Assembly: GCF_039596395.1 (NCBI RefSeq)
Contig: NZ_JBCNJT010000002.1
Span: 124,001 to 188,000 of the forward strand
Direction of reading: 5' to 3'
Length of the DNA: 64,000 bases
Source: Fluviicola sp.
GTDB lineage: Bacteria; Bacteroidota; Bacteroidia; Flavobacteriales_D; Crocinitomicaceae
The notes below the pieces were generated by a model. That model saw nothing but the letters and a program-made list of their open reading frames with translations. It was not told where the DNA came from and did no database searches. Positions 1,368 through 44,210 of the stretch are shown here, piece after piece. Position 1 is the stretch's first letter, and every line of letters begins with the position of its first letter. The position numbers and the translations under genes are program-made.

Positions 1368-1943
1368 TTATAATCTTTTCAGGAGATCCAGGATCTGTGG
1401 CACCAGCAGCTGGTTTCCATCGTTGTGAATAACCAGGCCGGTCAGTTTCATTTTTTCTTCTTCGGGCATTTGGGCGTTAAAGCGCGACTGCACCTGTTCA
1501 TCCGTCAGTTGATCGCGTTCTTTCACGCGTTCCATGCGGATTTTTTCCGGGGCACTTACCAAAATAACGGCATCAAAGGATTTATAGTTTCCCGTTTCGA
1601 ACAACAGTGCTGATTCCTGGAAAAGAAGGGGAGATTTCTGACTTTCAACCCATTGCCGGAAGTCTTTTCTTACAGCCGGATGAACCAGATTGTTCATAGC
1701 TGTCCGTTTCGAATCATCTTTGAAAATTTGTGCTGCAATGTACGGGCGGTTCAGGTTCGGCCCAACATAAGCTTCTTCACCGAACAATTCTTTCAGTCCG
1801 GCAATTAATGCCTGATCCTCATGCATGATGTCTTTTGCGCGCTGATCGGATGAATAGACCGGATATCCCATCAACTGCAGGATTTTTGACACCAGTGATT
1901 TTCCGGAACCGATTCCCCCTGTTATTCCTATTGTTTTTGACAT
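1368..1943 (-). CDS. coaE: Dephospho-CoA kinase
   Basis: A 191-aa protein that phosphorylates the 3'-hydroxyl of dephospho-CoA with ATP, the last step of CoA synthesis in the cytosol. The N-terminus has the P-loop GGIGSGKS (residues 9-16), and the LID-like region contains the basic VKERD stretch typical of the family. Length is normal. An in-frame TTG lies one codon upstream; I chose the ATG at 1943. A strong intrinsic terminator sits immediately upstream, so coaE is probably transcribed separately or by readthrough from the SiaB/SiaC pair. Confidence 0.93.
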   Translation of the reverse strand: MSKTIGITGGIGSGKSLVSKILQLMGYPVYSSDQRAKDIMHEDQALIAGLKELFGEEAYVGPNLNRPYIAAQIFKDDSKRTAMNNLVHPAVRKDFRQWVESQKSPLLFQESALLFETGNYKSFDAVILVSAPEKIRMERVKERDQLTDEQVQSRFNAQMPEEEKMKLTGLVIHNDGNQLLVPQILDLLKRL

Positions 1944-1946
1944 CAA

Positions 1947-1978
1947 ACAAAAAATCCCTCGGCTAAGCTGAGGGATTC
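1947..1978 (-). terminator. Intrinsic terminator after the SiaC-like gene
   Basis: Read on the minus strand, an AATCCCTC...GAGGGATT hairpin (arms about 1954-1961 and 1969-1976) is followed by a six-T tract, only a few bases after the SiaC-like stop and just before the coaE start. Confidence 0.75.
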
Positions 1979-1982
1979 GAAT

Positions 1983-2366
1983 TTAAATTTCTTCTACTTC
2001 AATGATATTGAAAGGCAAACTGATAATCGCCTGGTAATCCTGGCCGGCCTCTTCCATATCTTCATCATCCTCTTCAAAGAACCAGTTCACAACTACTTTC
2101 GTTTTGGAACCTGAAATGGCTTCCAGTTTTTTGAACAAGTCCAAAATACATTTGGAAGACGAGGTATTAAAATATTCTAACTTCACATCTACAGATGTTT
2201 GTCCGATCGGATCTTTTCCGTAAGCGTCGATCCAATCGTTCAAGGGCTTGTAAAATTCCACTGAGTTTTCAGGAATAGAACGACCTTTCAACTCAAGTTT
2301 TCCAGTAGCGGCATCAAAATGGATCGAAGGTGTTTTTGCTGATCCTTCTAGGTGTAAATTTTCCAT
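1983..2366 (-). CDS. SiaC-family regulatory phosphoprotein (DUF1987)
   Basis: A 127-aa cytosolic protein matching the DUF1987/SiaC family. In Pseudomonas aeruginosa SiaC is phosphorylated by SiaB, dephosphorylated by SiaA and, when unphosphorylated, activates the diguanylate cyclase SiaD. The conserved stretch EYFNTSSSKCILDLFKKLE places a threonine at residue 68, the number I recall for the Pseudomonas phosphosite. The gene starts 8 bp after the SiaB-like gene, so the kinase and its substrate are co-transcribed. No SiaA-type phosphatase or SiaD-type GGDEF gene is in the window, so the output here is unknown. The acidic EEDDEDMEE loop (about 99-107) is a notable feature. Confidence 0.85.
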   Translation of the reverse strand: MENLHLEGSAKTPSIHFDAATGKLELKGRSIPENSVEFYKPLNDWIDAYGKDPIGQTSVDVKLEYFNTSSSKCILDLFKKLEAISGSKTKVVVNWFFEEDDEDMEEAGQDYQAIISLPFNIIEVEEI

Positions 2367-2374
2367 ATTCTTAC

Positions 2375-2932
2375 TTAATCAATTTTTATATTCAAGCAGA
2401 AAAAGCTATTCGTATCGTTTATTGGCAAAAACTGATACTCTAACTTGTTTCCCGATTTTCTTGCAATATCAATCATACCAAGACCTGCTGTTCCTTTATC
2501 GGATAAAGTTCCGTTGCTCAGCACTTCCTGGTAATACTTTTTCAATTCATCCTTGTCCATTCCATTGATCGTATCCAAACGCTTCTCCAAATCGATTGCG
2601 CTTTCTTTATCAATGTAATTTCCTGTTCTAATTACGAAATGATCGTCTTTTTTAGCGATCATGAATAAAGCCGACTTGACTTCAATCCGCGTAAAATTAC
2701 GATCTTGTTCCTCATTTGAATCGATATGGTGATACAAATTTTGAAGACATTCCACTAACACATTGAAAACCTTCTTCTTCAATTTCGGCGATTCGTCCAT
2801 GTAATCCATTTTCGACTCCATAATTGAAAGAACAGATGATAGTAAATCCGACGTAACTACCCCTTTAAACGATAACAGGATGTTTTCCCGCTCCATTGTT
2901 TGGTAAAGTTCGTAGATATCGTTTTTTATCAT
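2375..2932 (-). CDS. SiaB-family protein kinase (DUF6272)
   Basis: A 185-aa protein of the SiaB/DUF6272 family, which phosphorylates SiaC and has a GHKL-type ATP-binding fold. The N-box-like helix is at ECLQN (61-65) and the glycine-rich ATP-lid motif at GTAGLGMIDIA (147-157). No membrane segment or sensor domain is present, so it must receive its signal from another protein. It is first in a two-gene operon with the SiaC-like gene and has a TATATTTG -7 box 20 bp upstream. Confidence 0.85.
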   Translation of the reverse strand: MIKNDIYELYQTMERENILLSFKGVVTSDLLSSVLSIMESKMDYMDESPKLKKKVFNVLVECLQNLYHHIDSNEEQDRNFTRIEVKSALFMIAKKDDHFVIRTGNYIDKESAIDLEKRLDTINGMDKDELKKYYQEVLSNGTLSDKGTAGLGMIDIARKSGNKLEYQFLPINDTNSFFCLNIKID

Positions 2933-2951
2933 TGTAGTTTTCGAAGTGCAA

Positions 2952-2959
2952 CAAATATA
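2952..2959 (-). promoter_or_regulatory. -7 promoter element for siaB-siaC-like operon
   Basis: caaatata on the plus strand reads TATATTTG on the minus strand, a perfect TAnnTTTG, 20 bp before the ATG at 2932. No convincing -33 TTTG is seen. Confidence 0.5.
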
Positions 2960-3091
2960 ATAATCCTATCGAACTAATAGTGGTATTCGACGAAAAAAAT
3001 GAGCAGATGGTAGAATTTCACGTGAGGATTCATTAACTGAGTACTTCCCCAACTTTCAGGCGTAAAATGAAGGTGTTTCCGCAAGTTTTTG

Positions 3092-3099
3092 TACTTTTG
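3092..3099 (+). promoter_or_regulatory. -7 promoter element, nearly leaderless
   Basis: TACTTTTG matches TAnnTTTG and ends only 5 bp before the ATG at 3105. Initiation 5-7 bp downstream would give an mRNA with little or no leader. Confidence 0.55.
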
Positions 3100-3104
3100 C
3101 AACA

Positions 3105-3857
3105 ATGATGCATTTAGACAAGCAAAAGGAATGGTTCTCTACCTGGTTTGATTCTCCGTTCTACCATGTATTGTACGACGAAAGAAACGACAAGGAGGCC
3201 AACGAGTTTCTGGACAACCTCGTGGCGTTACTCGATCCCGAACCGGGATCCACCGCGTTGGATTTGGCCTGTGGTGCCGGAAGACATTCCCGCGCTTTGG
3301 CTTCTCACGGCCTGAAAGTTTCCGGCTGCGACTTGTCTCCGAACAGTATTGAAGAAGCTAAAAAACATTCGGACCCAAGCCTTAAATTCTTTGTCCACGA
3401 CATGCGTGAAAAGCTGGACGATAACTACCAGTACGTTTTCAACCTGTTCACCAGTTTCGGGTATTTTGAAGATGTGTGCGAAAATGCGAAGATTTTAAAA
3501 AGCGTTCACGATGCCCTGGTTGACCCGGGAATCCTGGTAATCGATTTCATGAATGCCCATAAAGTCGTTCAGATTGTCCAAAATCAGCGGTTCCGCCAGG
3601 ATATTCAAAAGTGTGACATCATTTTCCATGTTAAAAAAGAAGTGATAAACGGACGCATCATTAAAACCATTGCTTTCGAACACGACGGAAAATCCTATTT
3701 TTTCCAGGAGAAGGTTCAGGCACTGGAATTAAGTGATTTTGAAAAACTATTGGCCGATGCTCATTTTGAGATTATTCAATTGGCCGGCAACTATAAACTG
3801 GAAGCTTTCGACCTGGAACAATCGGATCGTTTAATTCTTATCTGCAAAAAGAAATGA
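3105..3857 (+). CDS. Class I SAM-dependent methyltransferase
   Basis: A 250-aa Rossmann-fold methyltransferase. Motif I is ALDLACGAGRHSRAL (about 51-65), with the acidic post-I position in SGCDLSPNSI and a motif-II-like FNLFTSFGYF further on. The fold identifies SAM binding, but the acceptor substrate cannot be read from the sequence. ATG 3105 is chosen because of the -7 box just upstream; a second ATG follows at 3108. The gene overlaps the ZIP transporter by 4 bp (ATGA), so the two are translationally coupled. Confidence 0.85.
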   Translation: MMHLDKQKEWFSTWFDSPFYHVLYDERNDKEANEFLDNLVALLDPEPGSTALDLACGAGRHSRALASHGLKVSGCDLSPNSIEEAKKHSDPSLKFFVHDMREKLDDNYQYVFNLFTSFGYFEDVCENAKILKSVHDALVDPGILVIDFMNAHKVVQIVQNQRFRQDIQKCDIIFHVKKEVINGRIIKTIAFEHDGKSYFFQEKVQALELSDFEKLLADAHFEIIQLAGNYKLEAFDLEQSDRLILICKKK

Positions 3858-4591
3858 GCGAAATCATAACTACCATTTTCTTTTTGATCCTCTCCGTAAT
3901 AGTAGGCGGAGTGCTGGTTGTTTTCCTGGAGAAAAAGAACCAGGCCACTTTTATTAAACTTTCCCTGGCATTCAGCGGCGGATTCCTCCTGGCAATAGCC
4001 TTTATTCATTTTTTGCCGGAACTTTATGCCGAACAGCACACTTCCATCGGTGTCTGGGTATTGGTTGGTTTCCTGGTGCAATTATTCCTGGAATATTTCT
4101 CCGGGGGAATTGAACACGGCCACATCCATGCACACGCAAACAAGAAAATCCCTTACGGAATGTTGATTTCTTTGAGCATACACTCTTTTATAGAAGGAAT
4201 TCCGCTGGCAAACAATGCCGTACACGAACACACGCACGAGCATTTGATCGGACAACACCATAATTCGTTATTACTGGGAATTATCCTTCACCAGCTTCCT
4301 GTTGCCATTGCATTGATGACTTTATTGAGACAATCTTTGATCAAATCAACGACTTCCTGGATTTTATTGATTCTCTTCGGTTTAATGACTCCGCTCGGTT
4401 TGATTTTCGGGAAACTGCTTCCGATGGATTCCGCAATTCCGTTTATGGATATCTTACTGGCATTAGTGGTTGGAATGTTCCTGCATATTTCAACGACAAT
4501 CATTTTTGAGACCAATGAAAATCACCGCTTCAACCTGGCGAAACTCACAGCGATCTTGTTGGGAGTGGGATTGAGTGTTGGTTTGATCTAG
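3854..4591 (+). CDS. ZIP-family divalent metal transporter
   Basis: A 245-aa inner-membrane protein of the ZIP family, which carries Zn2+ or related cations toward the cytoplasm. The two signature metal-binding helices are present: HSFIEGIPL (110-118) and HQLPVA (146-151). A His-rich cytoplasmic loop HGHIHAHA (88-95) and a second one (HEHTHEH, about 124-130) are typical of the variable metal-sensing loops. Seven to eight hydrophobic segments fit the fold. Metal specificity is not decidable. Confidence 0.9.
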   Translation: MSEIITTIFFLILSVIVGGVLVVFLEKKNQATFIKLSLAFSGGFLLAIAFIHFLPELYAEQHTSIGVWVLVGFLVQLFLEYFSGGIEHGHIHAHANKKIPYGMLISLSIHSFIEGIPLANNAVHEHTHEHLIGQHHNSLLLGIILHQLPVAIALMTLLRQSLIKSTTSWILLILFGLMTPLGLIFGKLLPMDSAIPFMDILLALVVGMFLHISTTIIFETNENHRFNLAKLTAILLGVGLSVGLI

Positions 4592-4731: not shown

Positions 4732-5388
4732 ATGAAGATCCTTTTCTTTATCGTACTAATCCTTACAGGTTTCACCATCTTTTCTTTTCAATCGTTCGAA
4801 CTAGGCCTGTTGAATAATGGCTTTTCATGGACAATGTCCAAATTGTTGCCATACATCACGCTGTTTCTAGAAGGAATTCTATTGGCTTATTCTTTTGGAA
4901 AAGGATTCACCTTCAAACCGAAAATTGTCAAAATCCTGGTCGTAATCATTCTTTTAGTCGCACCATTTGCAGAAGGTTTCCGCGAATACCCGATTTACGA
5001 AGGTGATTTCAGTTCGGAAGGAACAGAAGTAAGCGAAACGACCGTAAAAACAAATCCGAAATACGATTTATTGATTGTTACCATTCCGGATTGTCCTTTC
5101 TGCCTGGAGTCCATTTTCCGTCTGAAACAAATCAAAAAACGCAATCCATCCGTAAAAATGCTTTTCTCGGTTTGTTCTTCCGACAAGCAAAAACTGAACC
5201 TGTACAAGCAATTAATTGCCGGAGATTTCGATATCGCCTTGGCTAAAGACCTGGATGCATCCGTTAAATTGGCGGAAGGCCATTTCCCGACATTTGTGCA
5301 ACTGAAAAAGGGAATTCCTGTTTACAGATGGTCGAACGATCAGTTCGGAGCGGGCGCTATGGATGAGTTTGAATCGGGAATTAAGTAA
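4732..5388 (+). CDS. Membrane-anchored thioredoxin-fold protein (CPFC)
   Basis: A 218-aa protein with hydrophobic helices at about 1-20, 37-55 and 65-80, then a hydrophilic linker and a thioredoxin-like domain. That domain carries the redox motif CPFC (121-124) and a cis-Pro-type FPT (185-187), so a disulfide oxidoreductase role at the membrane is plausible. An extra Cys lies at about 148. The neighbours do not reveal a substrate. The last 39 codons are the source of a degenerate tandem duplication immediately downstream. Confidence 0.75.
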   Translation: MKILFFIVLILTGFTIFSFQSFELGLLNNGFSWTMSKLLPYITLFLEGILLAYSFGKGFTFKPKIVKILVVIILLVAPFAEGFREYPIYEGDFSSEGTEVSETTVKTNPKYDLLIVTIPDCPFCLESIFRLKQIKKRNPSVKMLFSVCSSDKQKLNLYKQLIAGDFDIALAKDLDASVKLAEGHFPTFVQLKKGIPVYRWSNDQFGAGAMDEFESGIK

Positions 5389-5902
5389 TCCCCGCTCTGC
5401 TATCCTGATCAACGATTAGGCTTCCAAAACGCGTCAGCATCCGGAAGCCGCTCCCCCACTGGGCAAATCCCGCACGTGCGGGATGCGTATTTTATCGAGG
5501 TAATCTGAGGTTTGAGAGAGGATTAAACTGACAGAAGGCCATTTCCCGACATTCGTGCAACTGAAAAAGGGAATTCCTGTTTACAGATGGTCGAATGATC
5601 AGTTCGGAGCGGGCGCTATGGATGAATTTGAATCGGGAATTAAGTAATCCCCGCTCTGCTATCCTGATCAACGATTAGGATTCCAAAACGCGTCAGCATC
5701 CGGAAGCCGCTACCCCACTGGGCAAATAGACACATGTCTATGCGTATTTTATCAATGTAATTTGAGGTTTAAGAGAGGATTAAACTGACAGAAGGCCATT
5801 TCCCGACATTTGTGCAACTGAAAAAGGGAATTCCGGTTTACAGATAGTCGAATGATCAATTTGGAGCGGGCGCTATGGATGAATTTGAATCGGGAATTAA
5901 GT
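5263..5902. repeat. Tandem triplication of the 3' end of the thioredoxin-fold gene
   Basis: Three direct copies lie at about 5263-5521, 5522-5778 and 5779-5902 (spacing 259 and 257 bp). Copy 1 contains the true end of the gene. Copy 2 still encodes its last 38 or so residues with an intact stop but has no start. Copy 3 has a TAG in place of the Trp codon. The spacers between copies are closely alike except for a short hairpin: ATCCCGCA-CG-TGCGGGAT at 5467-5484 in the first and ATAGACA-CA-TGTCTAT at 5726-5741 in the second. A further 7-bp inverted pair (5419-5425/5443-5449) is intact only in the first spacer. Confidence 0.9.
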
Positions 5903-5910
5903 GACTAAAG

Positions 5911-6005
5911 AAAGGTTCAAAAGGTTCAAAAGGTTCAAAAGGTTCAAAAAGTTTTAAGAATTCAATTTGAACATTTGAATCAGCCTCGACTGAAACATTT
6001 GAACT
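5911..6005. repeat. GGTTCAAAA array plus CAGCC hairpin before the hemH stop
   Basis: Four tandem 9-bp units GGTTCAAAA (about 5914-5950) are followed by ATTTGAACATTTGAAT, the short imperfect inverted repeat CAGCCTCGACTG (5981-5992) and AAACATTTGAAC. It fills the convergent gap up to the hemH stop. Confidence 0.7.
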
Positions 6006-9837: not shown

Positions 9838-9990
9838 AAGTTCAAAAAGTTTAAATCGTTCAAAAAGTTCAAATGCGTTAAGAGTTCAATTTAAATCAGA
9901 ATTGAGAACTCCAGCACCAACAGTTTAACTTTTAACCCAATCCGCCACGGCGAATGGAATTTGAACCCTTTGAACCTTTGGAACCATTAA
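9838..9990. repeat. GTTCAAA/TTTGAAC spacer repeat
   Basis: Several GTTCAAA words are followed by TTTGAACC words, with a short CGCC-AC-GGCG inverted repeat (9943-9952) between them. It fills the divergent lipA/OsmC spacer and belongs to the same family as 4592-4700 and 5911-6005. Confidence 0.6.
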
Positions 9991-37425: not shown

Positions 37426-37461
37426 CCAAAATACGGATAGACATCCATCTATTTGCCCAGT
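37426..37461 (-). repeat. GGGCAAAT-hairpin-CGTATTTT element, third copy
   Basis: Minus-strand ACTGGGCAAATAGATGG followed by ATGTCTATCCGTATTTT has the same frame as the spacer segments at 5461-5494 and 5720-5750. Here the arms are ATAGA and TCTAT. It lies between two minus-strand terminators. Confidence 0.7.
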
Positions 37462-44063: not shown

Positions 44064-44210
44064 AAAATGTTCAAATGTTTCAGCCAAGGCTGATTCAAAT
44101 GTTTAAATTCTAATAAATCTCTTTGGCACTTGACCTCTTTGACTCCTTTAAACTTTTTTTGAACTTTCTTTTTGAACTTTCTTTTTGAACTTTCTTGAAC
44201 TTTCTCTAAA
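44064..44210. repeat. TTTTTGAACTTTC array plus CAGCC-AA-GGCTG hairpin
   Basis: Starts 6 bp after the response-regulator stop. AATGTTCAAATGTTT, then CAGCCAAGGCTG (44081-44092), then ATTCAAATGTTT; followed by four CTTTTTGAACTTTC-like tandem units (about 44156-44205). Same family as 4592, 5911 and 63916, in inverted orientation. Confidence 0.75.

Follow-up and report, generated by a model that had tools for sequence, protein, structure and literature searches.

REP or palindromic-unit families consist of imperfect hairpins of 20-40 bp that occur in numerous copies and are located mostly between genes that are convergent or run in one direction, and according to Di Nocera et al. the large REP clusters mostly hold units that are tandemly reiterated together with flanking DNA of variable length (PMC3733652). 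In the passages of this work that concern the GTAG families, stems and loops are described in alternative sequence types, some of the loops containing an inner self-complementary region, and the CGTC type is mentioned as known in Bacteroidetes, without a dedicated transposase. Small dispersed palindromes are also represented by the REPINs, which are mobilised by RAYT transposases (PMC3116915), and very short, maybe mobile and tandemly repeated elements have been described as small dispersed repeats in cyanobacteria (Elhai et al., cited in PMC2884548). The palindromes of Fluviicola that are presented here belong with the REP-like extragenic palindromes on general criteria.

The starting point was a window of 64 kb (G000:C2:124001-188000) from a 4.6-Mb genome in five contigs, termed G000. 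The sole array with a period above 27 that TRF reports in this window lies at positions 5264-5902 (period 259, 2.5 copies, 93% matches, score 1103) and agrees with the original prediction of a tandemly triplicated gene 3' end at a spacing of 257-259 bp. The gene in question is an intact forward-strand ORF of 218 aa with a CPFC motif (4732-5388), and the unit of 259 or 257 bp comprises its last 41 codons, rather than the 38 or so initially assumed, plus about 135 bp, close to the predicted 130 bp of downstream DNA. On the forward strand, the array has the architecture R1-S1-R2-S2-R3, in which the end of the gene itself (R1, 5264-5386, 123 bp; TRF and alignment) is followed by a spacer holding a B-type element (S1, 5387-5522, 136 bp; alignment), a first extra gene-end copy with a still open frame (R2, 5523-5645, 123 bp; alignment), a spacer holding an A-type element (S2, 5646-5779, 134 bp; alignment) and a second extra copy that has no spacer after it (R3, 5780-5902, 123 bp; TRF and alignment). 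The three gene ends are 95.1% (R1/R2), 95.9% (R2/R3) and 92.7% (R1/R3) identical, and R3 reads YR*SND, the Trp codon TGG at 5845-5847 being TAG as predicted. An assembly artefact as the source of the array is unlikely, because its copies differ from one another at many sites and because similar arrays exist at another locus of G000 and in another genome. At the expected place of a third spacer, TRF finds a GGTTCAAAA-type short tandem repeat (5911-5965, forward strand); short tandem repeats of the GTTCAAAA type recur in the window (5911-5965, 9838-9879 and 44156-44196).

The two spacers are alike except at one hairpin site, as had been claimed: 80 of 82 positions are identical to the left of the hairpin core (97.6%) and 36 of 40 to its right (90%), whereas the cores are CCCGCACGTGCGGG (14 nt) in S1 and AGACACATGTCT (12 nt) in S2. 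Together with the flanking AT, these cores form the predicted hairpins with 8-bp (5467-5484) and 7-bp arms (5726-5741) and 2-nt loops. The complete B-type element reads CAAAT-CCCGCACGTGCGGG-AT-GCGTATTTT (5464-5493, forward strand), the A-type element CAAATAGACACATGTCTATGCGTATTTT (5723-5750, forward strand), and the frame GGGCAAAT...GCGTATTTT around both occurs twice in the window and in none of 100 shuffles. As DNA, the two hairpins fold modestly (z -2.1, with 9 of 200 shuffles as good, and z -2.2, with 7 of 200). A further A-type element of the same palindromic family lies at 37428-37455 on the reverse strand, and no Rfam family matches the window between 4600 and 7100 at E<=1.

A thioredoxin fold, which had been assigned to the gene, is weakly suggested by its sequence: the CPFC motif stands, accompanied by a Thioredoxin_9 match (E=0.094) under the cut-off of that family and by a PDB thioredoxin chain at E=0.61, and no Pfam family is matched at E<=0.001. 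We retain the short form Trx for the locus. In the collection, the nearest relatives of the gene come from two Fluviicola records as well as two Flavobacteriales assemblies, which places G000 in or next to Fluviicola. For the ancestral locus we propose the order found in the genome G002, namely gene end, one element and a convergent ferrochelatase gene.

Each spacer carries a single representative of a palindromic, REP-like family that is dispersed in Fluviicola and has the core A, CAAATAGAYRSATGTCTATSCGTMTTTT. The exact frame with a free insert is present at 8 places in G000, a reversed control pattern at none, and in an exact-frame search of G000 and its 58 nearest relatives 11 of the 59 genomes gave matches, which by eye were element-like only in G000 and G012. 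A covariance model built from 11 A-type sequences gave at least 85 matches at E<=1 in 10 of 14 genomes of the genus, namely at least 24 in G000, 19 in G003, 16 in G013, 7 each in G007 and G008, 5 in G002, 3 in G012, 2 in G006 and 1 each in G001 and G010, counts for which 150 of the approximately 1,800-3,900 candidates per genome were scored and of which the weakest may represent chance; among the 150 candidates scored in each of G004, G005, G009 and G011 there was no match at E<=1. Profiling 63 distinct A copies of the genus gave ccTGAAATCCCTTGCTACCACTGGG-CAAATAGAYRSATGTCTATSCGTMTTTT-TGAR, with conservation falling outward, and the commonest subtypes are AGAC-AC-ATG (22/63) and AGAT-GG-ATG (15/63). 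Sampled stretches of 1.6 Mb contained five A elements and one true long form (see below), and a further 400 kb one A that was already known; these stretches are non-random, being the first parts of long contigs, and G007:C25 was known beforehand to contain A copies. Since the inner A stem is nearly invariant, it yields no covariation evidence. A longer outer hairpin (AAATA..TATTT with CGGAT/ATCCG) was rejected: 88% of its cells are paired in 11 distinct sequences, but 55 of 500 shuffles reach its covariation score.

In hairpin kind, copy number and placing at gene ends, these palindromes resemble the GTAG and CGTC families as far as those are covered in the passages considered (PMC3733652): they are short and dispersed (at E<=1, the model matches G000 at least 24 times, and 63 distinct A copies were profiled across the genus), and 54 of 66 elements (63 A, 3 B) lie outside called ORFs, the other 12 overlapping an ORF. 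The extragenic 54 are found between convergent (24), unidirectional (26, i.e., 17 and 9) or divergent genes (4). The specific tags of the two families are a different matter. Where the GTAG repeats have their unpaired tag, at the stem foot, the 63-copy profile has GGGCAA and SCGTM instead, and an unpaired CGTC at one stem end with a CCA-like tail at the other, a position for the published tag that is taken from text passages rather than a figure of the source (PMC3733652), is likewise lacking: CGTM is located 3' of the stem at a distance of one base, and the other strand has KACGS before the stem. The stems of A and B do begin with complementary AT (AT...AT at the base), as in the CGTC type. 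Alternative stems and self-complementary loops are, to judge from what is described for the GTAG families, of a known kind (PMC3733652); unlike what those passages report for GTAG and CGTC repeats, two stem types occur in one frame in Fluviicola and are linked by a nested long form. In the parts of the open-licence literature that deal with such repeats, we found no description of two stem types linked by a nested form at orthologous sites, nor any of the Fluviicola family itself in those on Fluviicola repeats, REP/RAYT in Bacteroidetes, Flavobacteriales REP and cyanobacterial small repeats.

With REPINs, as characterised in the passages at hand (PMC3116915), the Fluviicola elements have in common that they are small dispersed palindromes, but close neighbours do not form head-to-head pairs, and of the 23 loci with Y1/RAYT-type transposase genes in the genus 22 are without an element match within ~1.5 kb on each side. 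Mobilisation by a RAYT was rejected on this basis, the one match at the 23 loci being weak (E=0.097). The single Y1-transposase match of G000 has a GTCAAGGGGATTAATCCCCTTGAC palindrome inside an open frame (L023:1480-1510, G000:C2). The cyanobacterial repeats, described as very short, maybe mobile and tandemly repeated, resemble the Fluviicola element in these respects and belong to another phylum (Elhai et al., cited in PMC2884548).

The array of the window is not the only place where an element was copied together with a gene end. All nine pairs of neighbouring elements less than 600 bp apart in G000 and G013 are head-to-tail; they form six clusters. One small gene is flanked by two of these pairs, which have spacings of 455 and 427 bp. 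Locus L181 (G000:C3) has one of its flanking gene ends copied with the element (TRF period 185, 2.7 copies, 92% matches; 0/1000 shuffles), and a weaker trace of a second gene end is found on the other side (2/1000 shuffles). One neighbouring gene there is presumably ArsR-like, and the label "TonB receptor" for the L181 gene was discarded as unsupported, with no Pfam match at E<=1. In G013, the end of a glycosyltransferase-like gene is repeated with two elements between the copies (L147; 0/1000 shuffles on both sides). L148 has a copied downstream flank (0/1000 shuffles, observed 39 vs. a shuffle maximum of 38) and no copied upstream flank (259/1000 shuffles as good), and L149 a weaker upstream copy (3/1000) and no downstream one (126/1000). 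In the same flank alignments against shuffles, L150 and the distant pair L182 were devoid of a copied flank. Four arrays besides that of the window hence show the element copied in tandem with a flanking gene end, of which, among 58 element loci, TRF itself recovers L181 together with the window array, the others resting on flank alignment. In the 1.6 Mb of stretches, TRF arrays with a period of at least 80 amount to 16 after merging of overlapping rows, and as 13 of them lie wholly in ORFs, such arrays are rare outside genes; two of the remaining three are beside tRNA genes and one is in G000. Given that REP clusters are reported to reiterate in tandem with flanking DNA, in the passages cited (PMC3733652), the triplication in the window is best seen as known behaviour of REP-like repeats.

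By their flanking proteins, at least 13 element loci can be matched between species, each in two to five of them (11 tabulated groups plus the Trx and the frr locus; the group of L170, L106 and L120, with weak model matches, is excluded). In 40 between-species pairs from the 11 groups, the 28-nt core has a mean identity of 84%, a value that is inflated, just as hairpin changes at matched loci are under-counted, because resemblance to the A consensus was the criterion by which elements were chosen. The 24 bases to the left of the core are 52% identical in the same pairs, and ungapped flanks further out 30-34%. The palindromic elements are thus old, and their staying in place while the flanks diverge hints at function or homogenisation. 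In several groups, one and the same locus has different A subtypes in different species, positions 9-10 being GG, AC or others. Two side observations concern such loci. One glycosyltransferase-like gene extends with its end into the element in three species (L147:1473-1479, L176 and L185) and uses the TAG within AATAG as its stop codon; and at L160 and L162 in G003, direct repeats of 55-59 bp, common to both loci and spaced by 191 bp, lie on either side of the element, forming a composite dispersed unit.

The matched loci also reveal that hairpins of different type can occupy orthologous positions. The B hairpin, CCCGN6CGGG, was sought by exact patterns and is found in three elements, all in G000: in the window, between recR and mscL (C1:1642646) and on the frr side at C5:21875. 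At the frr locus, G000 has ACTGGTTAAAT-CCCGCACTTTCGGG-ATGCG (B) and G013 ACTGGTTGAAT-AGATACATGTCT-ATGCG (A), with the local frame ACTGGTT common to both. G007 carries a long form there, GCAAATAGACA-CAGCTTGTCCCGCCAATACGGGA-TGTCTATCCG, in which a B-like hairpin is nested in the A stem, and G006 has a half form, GGGCAAAT-CTCACACGTGAAAG-ATGTCTTGTCTAT, recognised by eye from an imperfect stem, that has kept the imperfect inner hairpin and the right arm and lost the left A arm; in the nine other genomes inspected at this locus, all except G005, the element is absent by eye. At the Trx locus of the window, the long form is found in G008 and a plain A in G002; G012 carries a decaying A that is in register, and G000 has both B and A, while inspection by eye of 420-520 nt revealed no element in G001, G003, G006, G007 and G013; G004, G005 and G011 yielded only distant homologues, and G009 and G010 none. 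Downstream of the Trx-like gene of G008 (L043/L060), the element adjoins a gene start; in G007 (L042) this gene continues, whereas in G008 it seems cut where the element begins. Between recR and mscL, the element is present in G000 only (by eye in 330 nt after recR, 14 genomes). Bases bordering the hairpin that are peculiar to one locus, namely GGTT at frr and the S of SCG, remain tied to their locus and are not carried along with the hairpin.

A scan with a profile built on A and a free insert of 0 to 70 nt returned the 63 copies with the 4-nt gap of A and four homologous long copies with a 25-nt insert, AYRRCTTGYCCCRYCAATRMKGGAT, located at frr and a second locus in G007 and at Trx and on contig C15 in G008. 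These four are the sole matches scoring at least 32 outside the A class; of the other free-insert matches, which reach ~31, the best overlap a normal A copy and the rest score below 23, and the maximum in 1.6 Mb of shuffled DNA, one strand, is 18. A gap-25 match at L263 scoring 21.8 is unrelated in sequence and was counted as chance. The inner hairpin of the long copies at G007 frr and G008:C15 has the length (14 nt) and arms of CCCGN6CGGG, and that of a third copy has one mismatch; the inner loops are CACGTG or CACTTT in B versus CCAATR or TCAATA in the long form. The long copy at G007 frr folds better than expected (z -3.0, 1 of 200 shuffles as good), whereas the one at G008 Trx folds no better than shuffled sequence (z -0.5, 59 of 200). 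No long form was seen in the ~0.5 Mb of G000 that were scanned.

For the origin of the hairpin difference, the odds slightly favour, in our estimate, that A and B are alternative deletion derivatives of one nested hairpin and not the result of cassette exchange. The direction (from long to short) and the deletion mechanism are what we infer here from the directly observed family, matched loci, arrays and orthologous occurrences of the long, A, B and half forms. The ancestral element at the Trx and frr loci would have been nested, with an outer A stem (ATAGACA/TGTCTAT) and an inner CCCG/CGGG hairpin in its loop, and in the G000 lineage gene end and element would have been copied in tandem, as at other family loci, probably via replication slippage or unequal exchange at the hairpin. 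Copy 2 would then have lost the inner hairpin (~21 nt) to become A, and copy 1 the outer arms (~13 nt on the left, 6 on the right) to become B, and since either loss would concern one of two nested hairpins, each product would still be a hairpin in the same frame. Two exact frame patterns, applied to the 14 genomes of the genus, gave A, B and one insert variant as recognisable elements, and as that variant is one of the four nested long copies, alternative trimming could explain both A and B. The two commonest A subtypes, each of which can occupy a given locus depending on the species, resemble products of inner-hairpin loss with differing junctions, or may alternatively derive from drift of the two-base loop. 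Against trimming speak the two deletions leaving a stem that B needs, the differing inner loops of B and the long form, the lack of a long form in the scanned part of G000, the detection of B, by exact patterns, in G000 only, the imperfect stem of the half form in G006 and the missing flank copy at L150. In addition, the Trx region seems to be rearranged as well, given that G008 and G002 differ upstream of the element, and the recR-mscL element looks as if it had been inserted already as B, because it is present in G000 only. A possible but rather doubtful alternative is short-tract gene conversion or template switching between family members, whereby copy 1 was A and received a B hairpin with the frame alone as homology. 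Two other B elements in G000 could have served as donors, the family members have the frame in common, and the differences of A subtype between species at one locus, in several groups, would fit; the known donors, however, differ from the window element in the bases that border the hairpin (at C5 GGTT on its left side, at C1 the C in SCG on its right side), so that the tract would have spanned only ~20 bp with few matching bases per side, and the long and half forms are left unexplained.

The original prediction had envisaged a replaceable palindromic cassette with several alternative inserts, in which an active process exchanges hairpins inside a fixed frame. We regard such a cassette as unlikely, even though the hairpin alone differs within intact local frames at two loci: apart from one unplaced candidate, two hairpin types were recognised in the frame by exact patterns in the 14 genomes, the insert variant being the nested long form, and no enzyme was found, the 23 Y1-transposase loci having provided the one weak model match already mentioned. 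The candidate for a third type, outside the window at G000:C4:260697, is a hairpin with 5-bp arms, AGTAGAATCTACT, which 23 of 500 shuffles equal and which is framed exactly by ACTGG..AAT...CCGTATTT. One of the two exact frame patterns gave 46 matches, against 18 for the reversed control; 12 are A or B, and of the 34 others, the 27 inspected with their surroundings all lie inside open frames, the candidate being one of the remaining 7. A frame-only profile over the sampled stretches added no further accepted hairpin type. Exchange is also favoured by a repeat in G008 (L273:2490-2790, G008:C15), where the 3' end of a tRNA-Cys gene and its terminator are repeated twice in a 94-bp unit and where, in both decayed copies, TCCCGCACATGCGGGA replaces ~8 nt of the T arm with both flanks kept. 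Unless due to chance, this occurrence in G008 of a palindrome matching B in an unrelated frame agrees more with a mobile hairpin than with trimming. The same 1.6 Mb contain 70 GC-rich 6-bp hairpins on 44 of 448 possible arms, ~0.16 per arm, so that one further CCCGCA hairpin, and with it the tRNA-Cys case, could be accidental. A reading of the B palindrome as a mobile hairpin of very small size, which replaces resident hairpins as units by an active process and leaves the flanks intact, seems improbable to us; if true, B would have taken the place of a resident hairpin not only in the Fluviicola repeat but also in a decayed copy of tRNA-Cys in G008. On the same contig (L282:10950-11301), the 5' end of a tRNA-Ala gene and its upstream hairpins are repeated three times in a 110-bp unit, with CCACTGGGCG in a hairpin loop. 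Trimming is slightly weakened, and both conversion and cassette exchange are slightly strengthened, by the poor fold of the G008 long copy and by the AGTAGAATCTACT candidate. Ordinary drift or an assembly error, finally, is a very remote explanation of the difference, as the stems differ at nearly every position yet stay paired, the array copies differ from one another and similar arrays exist at another locus and in another genome. That a whole hairpin changed in an intact frame, and not by unpaired substitutions, was part of the first reading of the window and is borne out by the recurrence of A versus B at the orthologous frr locus of G013 and G000.

Overall, the window and the related arrays show that the last codons of genes are copied along with palindromic repeats. 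Across the genus, the palindromes at matched gene-end loci make up a set that permits a comparison of orthologous positions with nested, half-trimmed, outer-only and inner-only forms. By means of these orthologous forms, the question how alternative stems arise in REP-like families while their complementarity is kept becomes testable.
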